DNA from: Planctomycetaceae bacterium
GTDB lineage: Bacteria > Planctomycetota > Planctomycetia > Pirellulales > PALSA-1355
DNA: 64,000 bases
Assembly: GCA_003153375.1 (NCBI GenBank)
Contig: PLYM01000217.1
Location: 18,825-82,824, forward strand
Direction of reading: 5' to 3'
Below are positions 3,171 through 59,392 of this stretch, piece after piece; the stretch's first letter is position 1; each line of letters opens with the position of its first letter. The notes beneath the pieces were generated by a model that was not told where the DNA came from, ran no database searches, and worked only from the letters and a program-made list of their open reading frames with translations. Both the position numbers and the translations under genes were made by a program.

Positions 3171-4223
3171 ATGCTTGCTTTCCTAGCGAACCGTGTTCTT
3201 CGGCTTTCGTTCCCTTCGTGTTTCGCCATGGCCGCAATGGCCACGGCTCTCGCGCTCTCGCTTTGTCGAGCCCAAGAGGAGGATCCCTTTGGTCCGGCAC
3301 AGCCGTCGGCTGCCGCTAAGGAAAAGCCTGCCGATGAATCGAAGACGATGGAGGCCGTTCCCGAGGAGGCGGGCAAGTCCGCCGAATCCCAAGGGGCGGC
3401 GGCCCGTTCGGGTTTGAAGGACGCGCCGATCGAGATCCTCTCGAACAGCGAGCGCAATATTCTGCTGGAACTCGACAAGCCGACCTCGATCGAGTTCGTC
3501 GAAGAACCCTTGGCTGACGTCGTTAATGATCTGAAGGACCAGCATGGTATCGAGATACAGCTGGATGACAGAGCCTTGGATGACGCGGGAATTCCTCGTG
3601 ATACGCCGATCACGCTGCCGCGCATGAACAACCTTCCCTTGCGGTCGGTGCTCGGGTTGCTCCGTCGCAAGTACGGGGTGCATTACCTGGTTCAAGCAGA
3701 CATGCTGTTGATCACGTCCAAGGATGTGGCCGAGTCCGAGGAGAACCTGGTGCGGATGGTCTATCCCGTGGGCGATCTGGTCACCGACGCAGATGACGAC
3801 ACGGACTACGGCAGCGTCGTCAAAGCGATTGTCACGACGATCGACGCCAGCACTTGGCGAACCTATCCACGGCCCTCGCACATGGCGCGACCGCAGGCTA
3901 ACCCAGTGGCGCCCGCGGCGCCCCAGGCAGCTCCATCCGTTGGTCCGCAAACAGAAGTGCCGCATAGCGGCACGCTGCATCAGGTTACGGGCGGTTTTGG
4001 CGGGATGGGTGGCGGAATGATGGGCACGGGAACGGGCGGCATCGGATTGATCGCCGATTCCCCTGGGGGCGCCGCTGGCGGTCCGGGCACCGTGGTGGTC
4101 GTGGAAAGCTCCCAGAGTCTGGTCATCGCCCAAACGCGCGAGGTCCACGAAAAGGTGCGCGATCTGCTGAAATCGCTGCGCGTCGCTCGCAAAATCGCCG
4201 ACGACGCGGCCGATGACGAATAG
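3171..4223 (+). CDS. Exported protein with STN/secretin-like short domain, Gly/Met-rich C-terminal linker
   Basis: Signal peptide; PLADVVNDLKDQHGIEIQLDDRALDDAGIPRDTPITLP..LRSVLGLLRRKYGVHYLVQADMLLITSKDVAESEENL; paralogous to the next gene. Confidence 0.75.
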   Translation: MLAFLANRVLRLSFPSCFAMAAMATALALSLCRAQEEDPFGPAQPSAAAKEKPADESKTMEAVPEEAGKSAESQGAAARSGLKDAPIEILSNSERNILLELDKPTSIEFVEEPLADVVNDLKDQHGIEIQLDDRALDDAGIPRDTPITLPRMNNLPLRSVLGLLRRKYGVHYLVQADMLLITSKDVAESEENLVRMVYPVGDLVTDADDDTDYGSVVKAIVTTIDASTWRTYPRPSHMARPQANPVAPAAPQAAPSVGPQTEVPHSGTLHQVTGGFGGMGGGMMGTGTGGIGLIADSPGGAAGGPGTVVVVESSQSLVIAQTREVHEKVRDLLKSLRVARKIADDAADDE

Positions 4224-4325
4224 CAGCCTTTTCCAAGCCACCTCGGACCACGGAGACTCGCCATGGATTCCCAATAGCTCTGCACGGCTGCGTCGCGCGC
4301 CAATCGCATTGCTGGTTTCTCAAGG

Positions 4326-5033
4326 TTGTCGGGTGCCTTGAGCTTAATTGTTGCCTTGAGTTGTCTGTTGCCGATTGGGTGGGCCCGTGCGGCCGAGCCA
4401 GACCCGCGGAGCCCCGATTCATCAATCGAGTGCTTGCCCGTTGTTTCGCCACGCGAGCAGCGAGTCTTGACGGTCCTCGATCGGAAAGTTGAATTTGATT
4501 TTCAAGAGACCCCCTTGGTTGAGTTCGTCGACGAGCTTGACGGACGGTGCGGTGTCGCTGTGAAACTCGACCGTAGGGGCATCGGCGACGCGGGTGTGGC
4601 CTCTGACACGCCAATAAACTGCCGCGTCAGGGGCACTTCTCTGCGCGTCGCCCTGAAGCAATCGCTAACCGAGATTGGTTTGCATTACTTCCTCAAGGAT
4701 GGGGCCGTGGTGATCAGCAGCAAGGACGTTGCTGAGTCTGAAGACAATTTGTCGATACGCGTGTACTCAATTGGCGACATCGACGCTAATAACTACACTG
4801 GTCTCATCAATTGCATCACCGAGACCGTGTCCAAGAATTCTTGGGACGAGAACGGAGGGCCCGGAAAAATCGAGCCGGCAACCGGTTCGAAGTGTCTGAT
4901 CATTGCCCAGACCGATGAAGTACATGCCAAGATCCTGGACCTGTTGCGAGCGTTGCGCACCGCCCATAAACTGTGGCCGAGAGATGCGCGTCGTGGCGAG
5001 ATGGGCAGCGCGGTGGGTCAGGGAATGATGTAG
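4326..5033 (+). CDS. Exported protein, shorter paralogue of the preceding STN-like protein (TTG start)
   Basis: PLVEFVDELDGRCGVAVKLDRRGIGDAGVASDTPI..LRVALKQSLTEIGLHYFLKDGAVVISSKDVAESEDNL shares the ordered motif set with 3171..4223. Confidence 0.7.
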   Translation: MSGALSLIVALSCLLPIGWARAAEPDPRSPDSSIECLPVVSPREQRVLTVLDRKVEFDFQETPLVEFVDELDGRCGVAVKLDRRGIGDAGVASDTPINCRVRGTSLRVALKQSLTEIGLHYFLKDGAVVISSKDVAESEDNLSIRVYSIGDIDANNYTGLINCITETVSKNSWDENGGPGKIEPATGSKCLIIAQTDEVHAKILDLLRALRTAHKLWPRDARRGEMGSAVGQGMM

Positions 5034-7003: not shown

Positions 7004-9553
7004 CTACGCGCGATGGATCTCCGTCAACTGATGGCTCGCGCCGGAGTGAACCAGATATTTTCGCGAAATGTTGCTGGCGAGTTCGCAAAGCTGCGTCGCC
7101 AGTTGCAGCAGGCTACCTTCGAGCCGCTGACGGATACCGTTTTCGTCCACCTCGGCCAGCGCCCCCAGGTCGGACAGCCGCACGCTCGAAAGCATCGCGA
7201 TCACCAGCCGCTGCTCGTCGCTCAACAGCGCTTCCGACTGGTGACGTGGTAGCCGCTCGACGTGGCTTGCCAGCGCGGCCAATTGATAGGCGATCGATCG
7301 TGGGTTCGTTTCGTCGGTGATCAACAAATCCAGCAGCGGCGCAAGCTGCAAGTTCGTGGCATATCGATTGCGATAGGTCATCGAGCTATCGGCGATCTCC
7401 AAAATCGCCTCCAGGACCGCATGTTCATTGCCGGCCGGAATGAACAGCGTCGTGCGGAGCAGCCCGATCATGTTCATGGCTCGCTCGGTCCGCCGGCCCA
7501 AGTCCAAAAACTGCCAACCCGGCCCGCGTGTCATGTTTTCCATGGCCACGCCGCTGAACGCCGAAAGATTGAGCACCATCTGATTGAGCATGGTCAACAC
7601 GTCGGACAGCGAGACCACGCCCAGCGGATAGCCGGGATGGAAGTCGTCGTCAATTCGCTTCAGGATGCGCCAGGTGTCGAGCGAGATGCGGTCGCGCACC
7701 ACCGTGGCGCCGCGCACCATCGAGGCCAGCACCGACAGCAGGCTGCCGGCCCGCTGCTGGTCGTAGAGATAGGCCAATACTTGCAGTTCCATCGCTGAGG
7801 CGGCCGAGCCGGTCCCACTTTCTTGCGGCGCGGGCGGCGAGCCAGTCAGGGCGCGAAACAAAATATCCAGCTCGCTCGCGTCGCCCGGCGAGTTTTCGCT
7901 GATCAGTCGGGTGAAGATGCTGCGCAGCAGTCGCACCAGGTCCTCGGCCCGCTCGACGTGGCGGCCAAGCCAGAACAGGTTGTCGGCCACGCGGCTGGGC
8001 AGATCGTGACCGCTGCGCCGCGGCGCCAGGGGCGTGCCCGGCGGCTGCAACAAGGTAACCGGTGCGACCGGCCCATCGGCCAACACCCACACGTCCTTGC
8101 TCCCCTGCCCCACGAACATCGACTCGCCGAGGGCTTCCGGCGACGCGCTCACGTGGGCCAGGGCCCCGGGCAGCACGCGGTACGAATCGCCCGCGGCCAC
8201 CGAAAAGGTTCGCACCGCGATGTGGCCAGCCACCAGCGAGCCATCGCTCCACACCGGAGCGCTCGAGCGGACCACCAGTTCCTGAGCGACGAACTTGGCT
8301 CCCGCCGTGCGAATGCGAGCAACGAGCTGTTCCTTTTCCGTGCTGCTCAGCGAGCCGCCATGCACGCTCTTGCTGGCCGTGTCACCCAAGGCCGAGCGAA
8401 TGATCAACCGATCGAGGTTTTCGAGCACGAAGGGCAGTGACTTTTCGTCGCCGCACCACCAGGTGCGAACCGAAGGAAGCTCCAGCGGTTCGGACAGCAG
8501 CCGCTGGCAAAGCGCGGGCAGGAAGGCCATCAGCGCCGGCGATTCCACCAGCCCGCTGCCCAGGGCATTGGCCAGCACCACGTTTCCTTGCCGTGCCGCG
8601 TGGGTCAACCCGGGCACGCCCTGGCGCGACCGACCGCCCAGTTCCAGCGGATCGCAAAACTCCTGTCGCACACGGCGCATCACCACGTCGACGTTGATCA
8701 GCCCACCGAGCGTCTTGAGATAGACGCGATTGTCGCGCACGGTCAGGTCTTCACCCTCGACCAGCGTATAGCCCAAATAGCGCGCCAGGTACGAATCCTC
8801 GAAATAGGTGGGGCTCGCCGGACCGGGGCTCAGCAGCACGGTTTGTGGGTTTTCGCGGTGCCGCAACGCGAGATCGGCCAGCGTGTCGCGCAGGGTCATG
8901 AAGAACCCGGCCAACCGCTCGACCCGGCAATGATGAAACACGTGCGGAATCATCCGCGAGATCACGATTCGGTTTTCCACCGCATAGCCGGCTCCGACCG
9001 GAGCTTCGCTGCGGTCGGCCACGACCCACCAGGCGCCCTCGGGCGAGCGCGCCAGGTGCGCGGCGTGCAAGTGCAGATAGCGATCGCCCGGCACGCTCCA
9101 GCCGTGGCAGGGACGCAGAAAGCCTGGATGGCCGAGGATCAGCTCACTCGGCAACAGGCCCTCGCGCAGCAGGTGCTGCGGACCGTAGACATCCTGCAAG
9201 ATGGCATTGAGCAGTCGCGCCCGTTGCGTCAGTCCGGCCGATAGCCGCGACCATTCGCCCGATTCCATCACCAGCGGCAGCGCGTCGAGCTCCCAACGGC
9301 GGTCGCGTCCTTGCGGATCGCTGTGTACGTTATACGTCACGCCGTTTTCGTCGATCAACCGCCGCGCTTGCTGCCAACGACGCGTCAGCTCGAGCGGCCC
9401 CAGGCCGTCAACCAGCGAGGCGAACTCGCCCCAATGGCCGCGCAGGCGACCATCGCCGGCGAACATTTCGTCGTACACGGCCCCCGGCGGCTCATAGCGT
9501 GCGAAGACGCTTTTGTCCGCCAAAGGGTTCAGGGCGATATGGGCAGAATTCAT
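7004..9553 (-). CDS. Fusion protein: circularly permuted ATP-grasp (type 2) plus alpha-E domain
   Basis: N-terminus YDEMFAGDGRLRGHWGEFA... with ATP-grasp features; C-terminus PSRVADNLFWLGRHVERAEDLVRLLRS alpha-E signature. Confidence 0.85.
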   Translation of the reverse strand: MNSAHIALNPLADKSVFARYEPPGAVYDEMFAGDGRLRGHWGEFASLVDGLGPLELTRRWQQARRLIDENGVTYNVHSDPQGRDRRWELDALPLVMESGEWSRLSAGLTQRARLLNAILQDVYGPQHLLREGLLPSELILGHPGFLRPCHGWSVPGDRYLHLHAAHLARSPEGAWWVVADRSEAPVGAGYAVENRIVISRMIPHVFHHCRVERLAGFFMTLRDTLADLALRHRENPQTVLLSPGPASPTYFEDSYLARYLGYTLVEGEDLTVRDNRVYLKTLGGLINVDVVMRRVRQEFCDPLELGGRSRQGVPGLTHAARQGNVVLANALGSGLVESPALMAFLPALCQRLLSEPLELPSVRTWWCGDEKSLPFVLENLDRLIIRSALGDTASKSVHGGSLSSTEKEQLVARIRTAGAKFVAQELVVRSSAPVWSDGSLVAGHIAVRTFSVAAGDSYRVLPGALAHVSASPEALGESMFVGQGSKDVWVLADGPVAPVTLLQPPGTPLAPRRSGHDLPSRVADNLFWLGRHVERAEDLVRLLRSIFTRLISENSPGDASELDILFRALTGSPPAPQESGTGSAASAMELQVLAYLYDQQRAGSLLSVLASMVRGATVVRDRISLDTWRILKRIDDDFHPGYPLGVVSLSDVLTMLNQMVLNLSAFSGVAMENMTRGPGWQFLDLGRRTERAMNMIGLLRTTLFIPAGNEHAVLEAILEIADSSMTYRNRYATNLQLAPLLDLLITDETNPRSIAYQLAALASHVERLPRHQSEALLSDEQRLVIAMLSSVRLSDLGALAEVDENGIRQRLEGSLLQLATQLCELASNISRKYLVHSGASHQLTEIHRA

Positions 9554-9695
9554 CCGATTCCTGGAGCGGGGGCAAGCAAGTCGGGACTACGCGCCCAGGG
9601 CGGATTGACCGCCGGCACGTTGATGGATGTCGGCGTTCCTTGCCGACTCGTCTCTCTCACTAAAATAATACGCCTACTTGGGCGGCTCAACGCGA

Positions 9696-10682
9696 CTACT
9701 GTTGGCTGGCCCGCTGGGCCAATTCCAGCGGCCGGAGCGCGAAGAAGGTCTCGTAAATTGCCTCGCCCACTTTGTTCAGTTGAATCTGGAAGGCGTCAAT
9801 GAATTCGTGGAGCCCCTGGTCAATGATCTCACTAACCTGCGTGTAATCGAGCTCCGATCGCAAGCGGCCCAGCCGCTTTTCGGCCAGCGTGCGAAATCGC
9901 CCGCGCTCGCCGCCAGTAATCGCCAGCAACGACTCTTCGCTCTTGATCAGGCAGAAGTGGATCGCACGGGGAAACTCGCTGTCCAGAATCAGGAAATCGG
10001 CAACGTCCGTCGGTCGAATCCGCCCAAACCGCTTGCGATACATTTCCAAGGCGCTAGCCGACTCCAACAAGGCCGACCATTGCACCGTATCCACGGGCGT
10101 GCCCACCTCCGCGATCGACGGGAGCAACACGTAATACTTGACATCCAAGATGCGCGAGGTCTTGTCGGCTCGTTCCAGCAACCGTCCCAAGCGGGCAAAG
10201 TGCCAGGCCTCGCCGTGCGACATCGTGGCCATCGTGATGCCTTCCAATAGGTGGCTGGCCAGCTTGACCTGCTTGAAGAACTCGTACGATGAGTCGAGCA
10301 TCGTGCCCGACCCCTTGGCCGACAGCACCATGAGATAGAACTTATTGAGCTCCTCCCACATCGACGACGAAATCATCTCCCGCACGGTGCGGGCGTTTTC
10401 GCGCGCTAATCGCAGGCAGGTGAGGATCGAGTTCGGGTTGCGGTCGTCGAACGTCAGAAAGGCGATCGCCTTGTGCTGGTCCGGCTCGCCGTACAACTCG
10501 CGAAACAGGTCGTAGTCGCCGGTGGTGATGACCAGCGGGGCCCATTGTTCGGCCGCATGCACGTCAGTATGGCCCTCGTCCATGGCCAGGTGCATGTTGA
10601 CGTCGATGAAACGCGCGACGTTCTCAGCGCGTTCGATATAACGGCTCATCCAAAAGATCGAATCCGCCACCCGGCTCAGCAT
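9696..10682 (-). CDS. Alpha-E domain-containing protein
   Basis: MLSRVADSIFWMSRYIERAENVARFIDVNMHLAMD...; ATG at 10682; the longer ORF is over-extended. Confidence 0.9.
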   Translation of the reverse strand: MLSRVADSIFWMSRYIERAENVARFIDVNMHLAMDEGHTDVHAAEQWAPLVITTGDYDLFRELYGEPDQHKAIAFLTFDDRNPNSILTCLRLARENARTVREMISSSMWEELNKFYLMVLSAKGSGTMLDSSYEFFKQVKLASHLLEGITMATMSHGEAWHFARLGRLLERADKTSRILDVKYYVLLPSIAEVGTPVDTVQWSALLESASALEMYRKRFGRIRPTDVADFLILDSEFPRAIHFCLIKSEESLLAITGGERGRFRTLAEKRLGRLRSELDYTQVSEIIDQGLHEFIDAFQIQLNKVGEAIYETFFALRPLELAQRASQQ

Positions 10683-33354: not shown

Positions 33355-33735
33355 ATGCGAGGCTTGCGGTCACTTCTGGTGTTGATGAGCGTGGCGCTGG
33401 TCATTTTACCAGCCGCCCCCTGCGTGCTGTTTAGTGCCTGCCCGGCCCTGGTCCGCGCGGAGCCAACAGCCCCGATCCATTCTTGTTGTGACCGGCACAA
33501 GGCGGAACCCCCTCATGCCACCTCTGGGCCGGTTGCGCCCTGCAAAATGGCCTGCTGTCAGGCGAAGACCGTCCCGCCGCTGGTGAAGAAGACCGCGGCT
33601 CCCGACGTGTCGGCTACCGTGGCGACTCTATCGCCGCAGCCAATCCCGACTTTCGTCGCCGGCGTCGTGCTTCCAAGCGTGGCACCGCCCGCGTCTCGAT
33701 CGCTGCAGATTCTCCATTGCCTGTGGCGCTGTTGA
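33355..33735 (+). CDS. Small exported Cys-containing hypothetical protein
   Basis: Signal peptide MRGLRSLLVLMSVALVILPAAPCVLFSA; HSCCDRHKAEPPH...CKMACCQAKT. Confidence 0.55.
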   Translation: MRGLRSLLVLMSVALVILPAAPCVLFSACPALVRAEPTAPIHSCCDRHKAEPPHATSGPVAPCKMACCQAKTVPPLVKKTAAPDVSATVATLSPQPIPTFVAGVVLPSVAPPASRSLQILHCLWRC

Positions 33736-33861
33736 ATGCTGCGCGCTTGCCTGTCGCAACCCTCAGGGTCGCGGCATTGCCGGCAGTCCGTTTTGGCGGA
33801 CACGGTGCGCTCATTTCAGTTCCACGAAGCTATTTCTTTTCAGGCATGAGGAGTTCATTTT

Positions 33862-34251
33862 ATGATTACGCGTCTCCAAATTTCGATCGCAGTATTACTC
33901 GTCGCCGTGGCCTCGGTTGCCGTGGCCACTGCTTGGGCGGTTGAGCCCGAGGCCAAGTCGTGTTGCCAGCAAAAGCTGGCTTGCTGCTCGGCCGACAAAG
34001 CCTGCTGCCAGGCAACCGCCAAGAACGGTTGCTGCGAGCAGGGCCTGGCTTGCTGCAAGGAAGACCGGGAGTGCTGCGCCGCGGTCCAGCGCTGCTGCGT
34101 CGAGGGCAAGAGCTGCTGCAACGAGGCTCGCGCCTGCTGCGGCCAGCCCGCGGGTGGCAAGTCGGCCGATGCCAAGTCGGCAAGTGGCAAGTCGGCCAAG
34201 AGCTGCTGCGCCAAGCCGACTTCGGAAAGCCCGGCGCCAACCCGGTCTTAA
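33862..34251 (+). CDS. Exported protein with regularly spaced Cys-Cys pairs (ten CC dipeptides)
   Basis: MITRLQISIAVLLVAVASVAVATAWAVEPEAKSCCQQKLACCSADKACCQATAKNGCCEQGLACCKEDRECCAAVQRCCVEGKSCCNEARACC...KSCCAKP; SD-like gaggag upstream; intrinsic terminator downstream. Confidence 0.8.
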   Translation: MITRLQISIAVLLVAVASVAVATAWAVEPEAKSCCQQKLACCSADKACCQATAKNGCCEQGLACCKEDRECCAAVQRCCVEGKSCCNEARACCGQPAGGKSADAKSASGKSAKSCCAKPTSESPAPTRS

Positions 34252-34288
34252 GGTCTGGTTTTGCCCCAGCGCGATGATCGCAATCGCA

Positions 34289-34333
34289 CGGGCACGCGGT
34301 AGCCACTATGGCCGCCGCGTGCCCGATTTTTTT
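34289..34333 (+). terminator. Intrinsic terminator downstream of the Cys-Cys protein gene
   Basis: cgggcacgcgg...ccgcgtgcccg (11-bp stem) followed by a run of seven T. Confidence 0.85.
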
Positions 34334-34350
34334 GCCGCGTGGTTTGGCGG

Positions 34351-53671: not shown

Positions 53672-55009
53672 ATGCCGAAATACCGGGCAGCAGCCTGTGC
53701 CGCTGTCGCCGCACTGGCGCTATTCATGTGGACGGCCGGTGGAGTAGCGGCTCCGCCGGGCGATGCGCCCATTTCGCTGTTGCCCCCGGTCGAGGTGTTG
53801 CCCATGCCCGCCGTGGCGACGGCTTGGACGCTGCCGGCCCTCATCGAACGCGCGCAGGCGGCGCATCCCGAATTGGAGCAGTCGGTTCGCGAAGTCGAGG
53901 CATCGCAGGGACGCGCCGTGCAGGCGGGCTTATACCCGAACCCCGTGTTGGGCACGGCTTCACCGCAAATGGCGGGCTCGATCAGCCAGTACAACGTCTT
54001 CACCAGCCAGGAGTTCGTGACCGCGCACAAACTGACGCTGGCACAAACGGCCGCCTTTCGCGAAGTCGAGCAATATCGGTTTCGCTACCAAGCGGCTCGT
54101 CTGCGCATCGTGGCCGCCGTGCGCCGCGAGTTCTACACGATGCTCGTCCTCCAGCGGCGGCTGGTGTTGCAGCAGGAACTGGCCGCGATCGTGATGCGCT
54201 CGCGCGATACCGCTCGCCTGCTCCTGGAGGGAGGCGAAGGCACGAAAGCCGATGTGCTCTTGCTCGACATCGACTACGACCGGGCCCTGATGGCCGTGCG
54301 CAACTTGCAGACCGAGCTCGAGGTCTCGCGACGTCGACTGGCACTCGCGGTCGGCATTCCGGAGCTGCCAATCGGCCAGGTCAACGGCAATCTGAATGTC
54401 GTCATCCCGTCGACCAATTTGGAATCGCTGCGGATTTACGTGGCCGCCACGCATCCGGAAATGGGCGTGGCCCGCCTGGAAACAGGGCGGAGTCAGTTCC
54501 TGCTCCGCCGGGCCGAGGTGCAACCTATTCCCAACGTCAACTTGATGAGCGGTTATCAGCGGCAGCTGAATCAGCCCGATCAGAATCAGGCGCTGTTTCA
54601 AGCGGTGATCGAAGTGCCGATCTGGAACCGCAATCAGGGAAATATTCGCGCCGCCCAGGCCCATGTGGCGCGGGCCGTGGCCGGAGTGCGGACGGCGGAG
54701 CTCGATTTGGGCCAGCGCGTCGCCCAGGCCTACAACGATTTCACCGTGGCCACCCAGCGCGTCGAAGTCTATGAAAAGCAATTGCGTCCCAAAGCTCAGG
54801 AGACGTTCCAGATTGCTCGCGAGTTGTACGAGCAGGGGTTGGGCCACATCGACTTCTTCCGGCTCTTTCAGTCGCAGCGCACGCTGATCGATACGGAGCT
54901 GGGTTTCCTCGACGTGCTGGAAGCTCGTCTGTTAGCGGCATCGGACCTGGCCGCGCTCAGTCAGTGGTCCGACTTTCCCGACGGCCCCCCGCCCATGCCC
55001 AAGCCCTAG
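53672..55009 (+). CDS. TolC family outer membrane protein
   Basis: LPALIERAQAAHPELEQSVREVEASQGRAVQAGLYPNPVLG; long amphipathic helices; EVPIWNRNQGNIRAAQAHVARA. Confidence 0.9.
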   Translation: MPKYRAAACAAVAALALFMWTAGGVAAPPGDAPISLLPPVEVLPMPAVATAWTLPALIERAQAAHPELEQSVREVEASQGRAVQAGLYPNPVLGTASPQMAGSISQYNVFTSQEFVTAHKLTLAQTAAFREVEQYRFRYQAARLRIVAAVRREFYTMLVLQRRLVLQQELAAIVMRSRDTARLLLEGGEGTKADVLLLDIDYDRALMAVRNLQTELEVSRRRLALAVGIPELPIGQVNGNLNVVIPSTNLESLRIYVAATHPEMGVARLETGRSQFLLRRAEVQPIPNVNLMSGYQRQLNQPDQNQALFQAVIEVPIWNRNQGNIRAAQAHVARAVAGVRTAELDLGQRVAQAYNDFTVATQRVEVYEKQLRPKAQETFQIARELYEQGLGHIDFFRLFQSQRTLIDTELGFLDVLEARLLAASDLAALSQWSDFPDGPPPMPKP

Positions 55010-55018
55010 GCCGATGCT

Positions 55019-58000
55019 CTACTCGGTGTCTTCGCCAAGGCGCGGCCGTGGCGCCACGAGGGAAAACAACACCGGGAGCACAATGGTCAAGGCCGGCAGC
55101 GAAGTGAGCAGGCCGCCCACGATCGCGATCGCGAACGGACGTTGCGTTTCGCTGCCCATGGCCTGCGATAGCGCCGCGGGCACGAGGCCGAGCATGGCCA
55201 GCATCGTGGTGAGAAACACCGGACGGAACGATTCCAAGGCGCCCGCCAGCAGCGCTTCGCGCCGGTCGCTGATGGATTGTCGGGCCTTCAAATAGCCGCT
55301 GCAGTAGATCACGCCCGAGAGAACCACCTGACCCAGCAGGGCGATGCAGCCGACGGCGCTGCTGACCGAGAAGTTCTCGCCCAGCAGCCGCAATCCGGCG
55401 ACCGCGCCGGCCACGGTCAGGGGCAAAAAGATGAAAATCGTCAGCGTAGGCGACCAGCGGCCAAAATTGGCGAATAGCACGCCCAGGATGACGGTGAGTG
55501 CGATGGGCAATGTAATGCCCAGGCGGAACATCGCGCGCCGCTGGTTCTGGAATTCGCCACCCCAACTCAAGGCAATTCCCTGGGGCAGCTCGAGATCGCG
55601 AATGGCGCGCTGCGCATCCTCGACCGTGCTGCCCAGGTCGCGGCCGCGAACGTTGAATTTGACGGCCACGAAGTGGGTAAAGTCTTCACGCCAGATCGCC
55701 GCCCTGCCCTGGGCCTGATCGATCGTGGCGATTTCGGCGAGCGTGATGTGATCGTCGGGATCGCCCATGAACATGCGGCCCAGCACTTCCAGATTGGCGC
55801 GCACTTCGGCCGGCAAGCGAATCGACACCGGAAAACGTCGTTCGCCATCCCATAGTTCCGTCGCTTGCTCGCCGCCCAGCGCGATGCGAATCGACCGCTG
55901 CACTTCTTCGACTGCCAGGCCGCGGCGGGCCAGCGCCTCGCGATTCAAGTCGATGCGCAGCGTGGGTACGTCCCCGGCCTGAAACAGGGCCAGGTCGGTC
56001 ACTCCAGGCAGGCCCGAGAGCTTCTCGCGCACCACCTCGGCAATATTGGTCAACTCGACGAGATCGGCGCCTTTCACCTTGACGACCACCTGGCCGATGA
56101 TGCCCGAGATCGTTTCGAACACGCGGTTCGTGATCGGCTGCGAAAAGTTCTGCTCGGCGCCGGCGATGACGGTCAGCTTTTTGCGGACCTCGAACTCCAG
56201 ATCGGTGCGCGAGAAACCGGGCCGCCATTGGTCTTCGGGGCTGAGCAGGATATTGAAGTCGGCGATGTTCGGCCCTTCGGTCTGCGTCGTCGATTCCGGC
56301 CGGCCAATGTGTGACAGCACGTCGATCACCTCGGGCGTTTGCATGATCAGTTCGCGCATCGTGGCGACCTGCTTGCGGGTTTCGTCGAGCGAGATCGTCG
56401 AAGGAAACGTGGTCGTGATGAAAATGCCCCCCTCGTTCAGCTCGGGCAGAAACTCGGTGCCGATGCCGCTGGCGTACCAGGCAAAGCCGATCGAAGCCGC
56501 CAGGGCCGCCGGCAGCACGATCCACCGTCCGCGATCGGCCCAGTCGAGCATTCGTAGATAAACGTTGCGAACGTGAACCAGCCACCGTGGCTCCACCGGT
56601 CGCATCGGTCCGCGAAAGACGAGCCGCTCGAGCGCAGGCACCACGACCATGGCCGACAGCAGCGCTCCGGCCAGCGCAAAGGCATAGGTGAACGCCATCG
56701 GCGCGAAGATGCGGCCCTCGACGCGCTCCAGAAAGAAGATGGGGAACAGCGCCACGATGATGATCAGCATGGCAAACGCCACGGGACGCGCCACTCTGGC
56801 CGCCGACTGGCGAATCAGTTGCGCGCGGTCGTCATCGCCGTGTCGCTCGATGGCGTGCAGCGTGGCTTCGAGCACGATGATCGCGCCGTCGACCAGAATA
56901 CCGAAATCGATGGCGCCCAAGGAAATCAAGTTCGCTGGCAGTCCCAGCAGTTTGAGGCCCACGAACGCCGACAGCAGCGACACGGGGATGACCACGGCCA
57001 CGACCGCAACGGCGCGCAGCGAGCGCAGAAACGCATAGACGACGAAGAGCACCAGCAATCCGCCTTCGAGCAGATTCTTGCCCACGGTCGACAACGTGGC
57101 GTCGACCAGCCAGGTGCGGTCATAAAAAACGCTAATTTGCACGTCTTTGGGCAGGACTTCGCGATTGAGTTGGGCGACCCGTTCGTGGACTCCGTCGAGC
57201 ACGATGCTCGGATTGACGCCGCGTCGCAACAGCACAATTCCCTCGACGACCTCGTCGTTGTGGCCGCGACCGACCGCACCGCGTCGCGCGGTGGAGCCTT
57301 CGAGCACTTCGGCGACATCGCGCACCCGCAACGGCACGGAGCCGGCAGTCGCAATGACCACGTTCCCCAACTCGGCCGGATCGCGCACCACGCCCAACCC
57401 GCGGACGACGAATTCCTGAGAGCCGATCGGAATATAACCGCCTCCCGCATTTTCGTTGGCCTTGGCCAAGGCGCCATAAACGGTTTCGATCGACACTCCG
57501 GCGGCGCTGAGCCGGATGGGATCGATGCGCACCTGATAATTTCTCTCGTAGCCGCCAAATGTGACCACTTCGGCCACGCCCGGAACCCCGCGCAAGCGGC
57601 GCTCGACGACGAAATCCTGAATGGCTCGCAGTTCCTTGAGGCTGCGCGGGCCGCGCAGCGTGTAGCGATAGATTTGGCCGACGGGCGTCGACTGCGGGCC
57701 CATCAGGCAACTGGCCCCCTGCGGCAAAACAGCCTCACGCAGCCGCTCGGCCACGCAGGTTCGCAACTCAAAATCGGTCGTGCCTTCCTCGAAGGTCAGC
57801 GTCACCAGCCCCAGGCCAAACACCGAAATGCTGCGCAGGTCGAGCAGTTTGGGCGTGCCCGCCAAGACTCGTTCCAACTCGACCGTGACGCGACGCTCGA
57901 CTTCCTCCGCGGCCTGGCCTGGATAGAGGCCGACGATTTCGACCATCGGGTCGGTGACGTCGGGAAAAGCTTCGATTGGCAGCAGGCGAAAGCAATTCCA

Positions 58001-58081
58001 GGCATAAACGCAGAACACGGCGGTCAATGCCAAGACGATCTTCCAGCGATCGACCGCGAAATGGATCAGGAAATCGAACAT
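55019..58081 (-). CDS. CusA/CzcA family heavy-metal efflux RND transporter
   Basis: LPIEAFPDVTDPMVEIVGLYPGQAAEEVERRVTVELERVLAG; YERNYQVRIDPIRLSAAGVS; GAIDFGILVDGAIIVLEATLHAIERHGDD; ASIGFAWYASGIGTEFLPELNEGGI. Confidence 0.95.
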   Translation of the reverse strand: MFDFLIHFAVDRWKIVLALTAVFCVYAWNCFRLLPIEAFPDVTDPMVEIVGLYPGQAAEEVERRVTVELERVLAGTPKLLDLRSISVFGLGLVTLTFEEGTTDFELRTCVAERLREAVLPQGASCLMGPQSTPVGQIYRYTLRGPRSLKELRAIQDFVVERRLRGVPGVAEVVTFGGYERNYQVRIDPIRLSAAGVSIETVYGALAKANENAGGGYIPIGSQEFVVRGLGVVRDPAELGNVVIATAGSVPLRVRDVAEVLEGSTARRGAVGRGHNDEVVEGIVLLRRGVNPSIVLDGVHERVAQLNREVLPKDVQISVFYDRTWLVDATLSTVGKNLLEGGLLVLFVVYAFLRSLRAVAVVAVVIPVSLLSAFVGLKLLGLPANLISLGAIDFGILVDGAIIVLEATLHAIERHGDDDRAQLIRQSAARVARPVAFAMLIIIVALFPIFFLERVEGRIFAPMAFTYAFALAGALLSAMVVVPALERLVFRGPMRPVEPRWLVHVRNVYLRMLDWADRGRWIVLPAALAASIGFAWYASGIGTEFLPELNEGGIFITTTFPSTISLDETRKQVATMRELIMQTPEVIDVLSHIGRPESTTQTEGPNIADFNILLSPEDQWRPGFSRTDLEFEVRKKLTVIAGAEQNFSQPITNRVFETISGIIGQVVVKVKGADLVELTNIAEVVREKLSGLPGVTDLALFQAGDVPTLRIDLNREALARRGLAVEEVQRSIRIALGGEQATELWDGERRFPVSIRLPAEVRANLEVLGRMFMGDPDDHITLAEIATIDQAQGRAAIWREDFTHFVAVKFNVRGRDLGSTVEDAQRAIRDLELPQGIALSWGGEFQNQRRAMFRLGITLPIALTVILGVLFANFGRWSPTLTIFIFLPLTVAGAVAGLRLLGENFSVSSAVGCIALLGQVVLSGVIYCSGYLKARQSISDRREALLAGALESFRPVFLTTMLAMLGLVPAALSQAMGSETQRPFAIAIVGGLLTSLPALTIVLPVLFSLVAPRPRLGEDTE

Positions 58082-58090
58082 GAGAGGGCC

Positions 58091-59218
58091 TTACAGCAAG
58101 CGGTCCAGTTCACCGTCGAGCAGGACCGCGCCTTCGACCACGATTTCCTCTCCTTCGCTCAGGCCAGAGGAAATCTCGAGCGTCGCGGCGACACTTGAGC
58201 CCACGACCACCGGGCGCCGTTCCAACTCGCGATCGCCGCGCCTGACCAGCACCACGCGCATGTCGCGACGTAGCAGCACCGACTCGCGCGGCACGACGAG
58301 TAGATCGACGCCTTGCACGACAATCGTGACCCGCGCCAGCATGGCGGCGCGCAATCGTCGGTCGGGTGAGTTGAAGCCGCAGGAGACTTGCACGGTGCGA
58401 TTCGTCGGATCGATGGCTTGCACGACCGAGCGCACCTGGCCTTCGAAGCAGACCTGGCCCAGCGAGGGAACTTCGATACGGCAGGCAAAGCCCTCGCGCA
58501 ACAGCGGGGCGTCACGTTCCGGGAAACTGGCGTTCACGATCAGGTTGTGCGGGTCGACCACGACGAATGCGGGCTCGTGTGCCGGATCATGCGCGTGTTC
58601 CCCGGGGTCGATCTTGCGTTGAATGACCTGTCCCGCGCGGGGGCTGCGGAGTTCGAACAGGTCTTCCCCCTCTTCGGTCGCCCGGGCCGATCGCAGCGCG
58701 ACCAGCAGGCCAGTGCGCTGGGCTTCGAGCCCGCCGATCGTGGCCTCTAGTTCGACGACCTTGCGATTCGAGATCGCCTCTTTGGCGACTAGCACGCTGG
58801 CCCGTTTCACCGCGTCGTATTCACCGCCAAGTTCGGCCGTGAGGCGGCGAATGTCGGCCCGCATCTTGGCGAGCTCGCTGCTGCGAATGCGGGCCAGCAC
58901 CTGATCGACGGCCACGGTTTGTCCGGCGAAGACCTCGACCGACTCGACGATGCCATCGAACGGAATCCGCACGGCCACCATGGCGCCCGGTGCAAAGGCG
59001 ATATCGCCGACGCCGGGCAACTCGGCCAGGATGTTGCTCTTTTGGACCTTGGCGAACCGCAGCATCGGCATCAGGTCTTCGCGGATGCGCAGCGTGCCGT
59101 CGACGGTGAGTTGGTAAGGAGCCTCTTCGACGCTACTGGGCGGCCGCTCGGCACGACAGCCGAGGAGAAACAGCGAACCGGCCAAAACGGCCACGAGAGG
59201 CGCAATCCATTTCAACAT
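58091..59218 (-). CDS. Efflux RND transporter periplasmic adaptor subunit (lipoprotein)
   Basis: LFLLGCRAERPPSS lipobox; VRIPFDGIVESVEVFAGQTVAVDQVLARIRS; SPRAGQVIQRKIDPGEH; immediately upstream of the RND gene on the same strand. Confidence 0.92.
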   Translation of the reverse strand: MLKWIAPLVAVLAGSLFLLGCRAERPPSSVEEAPYQLTVDGTLRIREDLMPMLRFAKVQKSNILAELPGVGDIAFAPGAMVAVRIPFDGIVESVEVFAGQTVAVDQVLARIRSSELAKMRADIRRLTAELGGEYDAVKRASVLVAKEAISNRKVVELEATIGGLEAQRTGLLVALRSARATEEGEDLFELRSPRAGQVIQRKIDPGEHAHDPAHEPAFVVVDPHNLIVNASFPERDAPLLREGFACRIEVPSLGQVCFEGQVRSVVQAIDPTNRTVQVSCGFNSPDRRLRAAMLARVTIVVQGVDLLVVPRESVLLRRDMRVVLVRRGDRELERRPVVVGSSVAATLEISSGLSEGEEIVVEGAVLLDGELDRLL

Positions 59219-59392
59219 GACCAGCTCATTGCGGAAGAAATCCGCCACGACGGAACAATCAGGAGATTGCCCGAAGTGAGCGGTGCAAGCTGGCCGGCGC
59301 CGACGGCCAAAGAGACACTAGCGATTTAGTATAGTCAAAATCTTGAGTCGGGGAAGACGCTGCCGGAAACCACCGCGAATTCGATGATTTAC

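Follow-up and report, generated by a model that had tools for sequence, protein, structure and literature searches.

Organisation of the locus

The window, i.e., the whole stretch of 64,000 nucleotides that was analysed, contains two small neighbouring genes on the same strand, which are referred to here as WRC and CC-x5 and whose features are listed in Table 1. The original prediction described the downstream gene as an exported ORF with ten Cys-Cys pairs mostly 7 residues apart, whereas the upstream partner and with it the two-gene arrangement had been missed. The description of the CC-x5 protein holds in full: its 20 cysteines all occur in the ten pairs, leaving no unpaired cysteine, a Lys/Ser/Ala linker separates the array from the tenth pair, and the spacings from pair to pair are 7, 7, 9, 7, 7, 7, 7, 7 and 23 residues, so that seven of the nine steps are exactly 7 residues long. 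When the mature sequence (20 Cys in 103 residues) was shuffled 20,000 times, no shuffle contained ten CC pairs or seven steps of 7 residues. As a background value, the called genes of the window, which do not include the CC-x5 ORF, contain four CC dipeptides in 18,322 aa.

Table 1. Position of the WRC and CC-x5 genes and their features in the window.
Feature	Position	Strand	Description
WRC gene	33355..33735	+	126 aa, exported Cys protein; candidate nascent-chain metal sensor/leader ORF; presumed start codon
WRC hydrophobic export signal	33355..33423	+	residues 1-23, Cys at the end; read from the sequence and aligned with other WRC
WRC Cys cluster CKMACC	33541..33558	+	residues 63-68, 59-64 residues before the end; proposed metal site
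WRC C-terminal motif and stop	33706..33735	+	proposed pause/arrest motif; LQILHCLWRC starts at 33703
Intergenic region WRC/CC-x5	33736..33861	+	126 nt; carries the SD GAGGAG
CC-x5 gene	33862..34251	+	ATG, 129 aa; exported protein (by sequence) with ten Cys-Cys pairs; homologues share the spacing
CC-x5 hydrophobic export signal	33862..33939	+	approximately residues 1-26, Sec-type without twin Arg; read from the sequence, A26 conserved in the alignment
CC-x5 array	33961..34140	+	nine CC pairs, residues 34-93; tenth pair at 34204-34209
CC-x5 intrinsic terminator	34289..34333	+	12-bp stem (~34289-34325), then ATTTTTTT

The expression signals expected for the CC-x5 gene are likewise present. The SD element GAGGAG is located at 33848-33853, 8 nt upstream of the ATG, and the gene has its own intrinsic terminator, the region 34265-34340 folding with -41.6 kcal/mol; the automatic terminator scan missed it because of its loop limit of 8. 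The repeat units have diverged in DNA, with 37% identity in the x5 part outside the Cys codons, which argues against a young slippage repeat and for an old pattern kept by selection. AlphaFold2 returned no confident structure for nine CC-x5 sequences (pLDDT 47.7), and the suggestion that all CC pairs lie on one face of a helix is therefore not upheld, nor is a solenoid claimed.

The CC-x5 family

The CC-x5 protein showed no match above chance in Pfam, NCBIfam or the PDB; granulin, which appeared as a PDB relative when both proteins were searched against these databases, was rejected, as an E value of 0.4 is no better than chance. When the genome contig records were scanned with the CC-x5 protein of the window as a single sequence, no match was obtained, and eight records matched a three-sequence alignment. 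Relatives with the same spacing were present in all four genomes searched within the family of the window, and 29 of 397 genomes of the order contained a match, most of these with the same spacing and a few low-complexity or frame-broken. A second family of the same class also contains relatives, as do records labelled Pirellulales, Pirellulaceae and Planctomycetaceae. Judged by their sequences, the CC-x5 proteins are a real and widespread planctomycete family with common spacing.

In 30 CC-x5 proteins, 75% of the steps between CC pairs measure 7 residues, the Cys content of the mature part is 22% and unpaired cysteines are rare. The relatives carry 6-19 pairs and vary in length as well, with Glu/Ala, Gly, Leu and Ala being the favoured residues between the pairs. 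Two candidates, one with DCCPKPK repeats (L026) and L028, were set aside as low-complexity chance matches, and plasmid carriage gave no match.

WRC and CC-x5 form a conserved pair

WRC lies directly upstream of CC-x5 on the same strand in 30 of the 30 non-redundant pairs assembled, although these loci are not fully independent, as WRC and its neighbours share ancestry. The two genes are 64-232 nt apart, except in one locus, where the ORF start that was taken lies at 25 nt. The genes surrounding the pair differ between families, and the window neighbours ligA, a methyltransferase, an SDR and a thioesterase gene are kept only within the family and are uninformative. The conserved unit is the WRC/CC-x5 pair and not a single ORF. 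Four loci (L109, L110, L111 and L113) were found with the CC-x5 sequence only and all possess WRC, so that WRC did not bring these loci in.

Among the CC-type matches retrieved first, those without WRC are a three-copy variant (L043/L017), a short and probably broken gene (L044) and a YHS fusion (L051). No WRC was detected upstream of the three-copy CCMKRAYCC variant in L043/L017 (G369, G391), while the same variant is accompanied by WRC in L166. The fusion (G118, 9358-10314) is a single ORF consisting of a CC-x5 array and the YHS-like domain of L173/L178 (47% identity over 120 residues). In two further loci (L087, 4412-4672; L088, 4669-4929), WRC is followed by an 86-aa protein that has lost most CC pairs, and the Cys cluster of WRC is replaced by HSHC or HPHC at the same distance to the end; by sequence, these look like an altered or decaying module.

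Conserved C-terminus and fixed spacing in WRC

The WRC protein of the window, with one Cys pair, one Cys cluster and the end LHCLWRC, matches the WRC profile with E values of 5e-26 and 3e-26. For 24 WRC members there was no match in Pfam, and NCBIfam and the PDB yielded nothing above chance. The profile, built from 24 sequences, had matches in 98 of the 398 genomes searched in the class, a part of which were weak; matches in other classes (L098, L100-L102) were weak and not accepted. In another planctomycete class, a set of HlyD and ABC-transporter genes comes after a leader-like, Cys-rich protein that lacks the WRC end (L099, G459, 4182-4571).

Among 67 distinct WRC ORFs, counted from the C-terminus, position -5 is Cys in 65, position -3 is Trp in 64 and position -1 is Cys in 56. 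The Cys codons, the Arg codons and the stop codon of this motif vary synonymously between relatives, and the near-invariance of the residues despite varying codons indicates that selection acts on the peptide. The stretch between the last Cys pair and the C-terminus measures 60.9 +/- 1.8 residues, as opposed to 71.2 +/- 9.8 residues for the part preceding the pair (F=28.8, p=6e-12; set pruned to 25, of which 24 were used and L041 was left out due to an extra linker Cys), a p value that is weakened by common ancestry, which leaves the length contrast itself untouched. When no window is preselected and the CC or CxC closest to the C-terminus is taken, it is located 57-67 residues from the end in 61 of the 67 distinct ORFs (median 61). 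In the pruned set, the linker in between, aligned gap-free from the end, is only 8.6% identical, compared with 64% for the last eight residues. A fixed length combined with a free sequence fits a nascent chain that spans the ribosome and the translocon.

Genes headed by WRC and their connection to copper

A Cys-pair gene, as assigned by a loose rule, comes directly after 57 of the 67 distinct WRC ORFs, and some of the 57 are irregular. In the other ten, WRC heads CusB and CusA genes (L149 and L160; the L149 protein matches TIGR00914 above cut-off), an OEP gene (L140), a protein resembling Csp (L157; in the PDB it matches CSP3 best, with 8.5e-5, and in NCBIfam nothing), YHS-like proteins (L173 and L178; PF04945 just under cut-off in L173) and lipoprotein-like proteins that match TRASH/YHS weakly (L171 and L179). 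It also precedes short Cys-rich peptides, present as two identical exported copies of 61 aa in tandem approximately 90-560 nt after WRC (L165, G866), and an exported protein of ~180 aa with AHCD and HACC motifs and no family match (L086, G759, 3796-4344, minus strand). Some of the complete WRC/CC-x5 pairs are followed by genes for a CopA-type ATPase (L144) or a CsoR-family repressor (L166), which exceed the cut-offs of TIGR01511 and PF02583, respectively, or for a Csp1-like protein (L143), which stays below that of TIGR04401 (E=2e-11).

These copper genes, behind WRC as well as behind the pairs, together with the fusion of a CC-x5 array to the YHS-like domain in L051, make copper, perhaps silver, the likeliest signal. 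Copper is most likely on the basis of this gene company, and a zinc, cadmium or silver company would look much alike. The same genes lend indirect support, for copper in particular, to the metal-binding part of the secreted scaffold that was originally proposed. Elsewhere in the window, at 53726-59248, an OEP gene on the plus strand is convergent with genes for an RND pump and a HlyD/CusB-like adaptor on the minus strand, and no WRC-type leader was seen nearby.

A possible metal-response module and alternative explanations

From the observed adjacency, gene order, ruler, motif conservation and copper company we infer ribosome stalling, metal sensing and binding as well as the sign of the regulation, and lean slightly towards reading 33355-34251 as a two-gene metal-response module, in which WRC would be a cotranslational copper sensor in the manner of CutF and CruR and CC-x5 a periplasmic thiolate copper buffer. 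WRC would be exported while it is translated, with the Cys cluster ~61 residues behind the C-terminal LhhLxCVWRC end, and a ribosome pausing at C-x-W-R-C would place this cluster just beyond the ribosome tunnel and the translocon. There it could sample periplasmic copper, which would alter the pause or the fate of the ribosome and, as a result, the expression of the next gene. CC-x5, as an exported protein with 20 thiols, would bind soft metals such as Cu(I) in the periplasm, and in relatives Csp-like, CusBA, OEP or YHS-like genes take its place behind WRC.

The folding of the intergenic RNA in 26-30 loci revealed no conserved or significantly stable structure over the SD of CC-x5, which leaves a stem-loop step of the CutF type without support. 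Single hairpins just past the WRC stop occur in several loci, none of them consistently stable compared with shuffles, and the windows of lower folding energy overlap conserved codons. In the Gimesia-like loci L090-L095, a small hairpin, TGAAAT...ATTTCA (TGAAAC...GTTTCA in L094), directly follows the WRC stop.

Among the alternatives, the one that survives best, although we consider it unlikely, is that both genes encode a working exported pair for metal handling, with WRC as a stable metal carrier, located in the periplasm or bound to a membrane, which would load CC-x5 or act as its partner without translational control. The same adjacency and copper company, together with the fact that both proteins are Cys-rich and exported by sequence, would be expected here as well. 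However, a folded partner needs no ruler of fixed length with a free sequence, the conserved motif reaches the stop codon, and the presence of WRC ahead of CusBA, OEP and Csp-like genes points to a leader position and not to one particular partner.

Cystine-rich protein walls are known in planctomycetes, and CC-x5 could accordingly be conceived as a structural, disulfide-linked envelope protein that WRC controls or accompanies under oxidative or thiol stress. The export of a protein whose cysteines are all paired and the variation in length and pair number, as in structural repeats, are in keeping with this, but the occurrence in a minority of the genomes of the order is unlike a wall protein, short versions have only six pairs, and genes for copper efflux and copper storage are found behind the same leader. 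This explanation is thus improbable, and nothing was found in favour of the disulfide-linked filament of the original prediction. It is more improbable still, to the point of being a marginal option, that CC-x5 is the precursor of a modified copper-binding peptide whose cysteines are altered by an MNIO enzyme encoded elsewhere. Bufferins are likewise exported, copper-chelating Cys peptides (PMC12452194), but precursor, MNIO and partner genes form the conserved core of bufferin clusters (PMC12452194), no modifying-enzyme or partner gene was seen beside the pairs by reading, and CC-x5 matched no bufferin family.

Returning to the sensor and buffer module, the chances are about even that WRC represents a new planctomycete class of nascent-chain metal sensors, characterised by C-x-W-R-C and a 61-residue ruler that puts the Cys cluster where the translocon opens into the periplasm, which serves as a plug-in leader for several copper effectors, and that CC-x5 is a new family of exported copper-thiolate buffers. 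If true, the small group of nascent-chain metal sensors described so far would gain a second motif class, with matches (some of them weak, as given above) in roughly one in four of the genomes sampled from a single planctomycete class, and a family of exported Cys-pair proteins without a described relative would be added as well. The module would also open a way into the control of periplasmic copper in planctomycetes, a subject on which our literature search found next to nothing, and with its fixed length and free sequence the linker lends itself to insertions as a direct test of the cotranslational model.

Comparison with known systems

The closest parallels to WRC are leader proteins of copper genes. 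CutF of Rhodobacter capsulatus is an exported Cys protein heading a copper operon, with its Cys motif 45 residues from a proline-rich C-terminus, and the commonest neighbours of CutF-like proteins are OEP, CusA and CusB genes (PMC9973294). WRC is similarly small and exported, and its Cys motif likewise keeps a set spacing to a conserved C-terminus, but the C-x-W-R-C end is not proline-rich, the distance is ~61 instead of 45 residues, the next gene is different and no stem-loop covering the SD was found. With regard to the rules of the CutF-like survey (PMC9973294), the 126 aa and the hydrophobic N-terminus of WRC (by reading) agree with a length of <150 aa and an N-terminal signal peptide, and CC-x5, 126 nt downstream in the same orientation, agrees with the limit of 1,000 nt set for the following gene. 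The survey further uses PP in the last 15 residues; the window WRC ends in SRSLQILHCLWRC without PP, which is present in 23 of 67 relatives. Individual PP-bearing WRC members may already be included in that survey.

CruR of Bordetella pertussis (DUF2946) is a leader ORF with a Cys motif and a conserved C-terminus at fixed spacing that heads copper genes (PMC9426467). WRC corresponds to it in all of these points, including the constant distance between Cys motif and C-terminus that characterises both CutF and CruR, but CruR shuts off an importer, whereas WRC precedes a presumed buffer. Of the DUF2946/CruR signature (CXXC, RAPP), no Pfam match was found for 24 WRC members and RAPP occurs in none of the 67 ORFs. 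An arrest-peptide survey describes an LPPP class in other planctomycete orders, and the portion of its text that was searched contains no C-x-W-R-C motif (PMC10987492).

For CC-x5, the copper storage proteins Csp1 and Csp3 (PMC7558416) are comparable in having many cysteines for Cu(I), Csp1 also in being exported, and Csp-like genes are found behind WRC or the pair in relatives. They differ in that they form a four-helix bundle with CxxxC, whereas CC-x5 has pairs every 7 residues and a Sec-type signal; neither the Tat signal of Csp1 (no twin Arg) nor a match to its four-helix bundle profile in NCBIfam or to a Csp in the PDB was found. As originally stated, CC-x5 is also distinct from classical metallothioneins, with no match to their families in Pfam, NCBIfam or the PDB: it is exported and contains CC pairs only, without CxC or CxxC, but like SmtA and MymT it is small, very Cys-rich and without a confident fold in the absence of metal. 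By hypothesis, WRC and CC-x5 may resemble CutF and CruR, Csp and the metallothioneins in the way they work.
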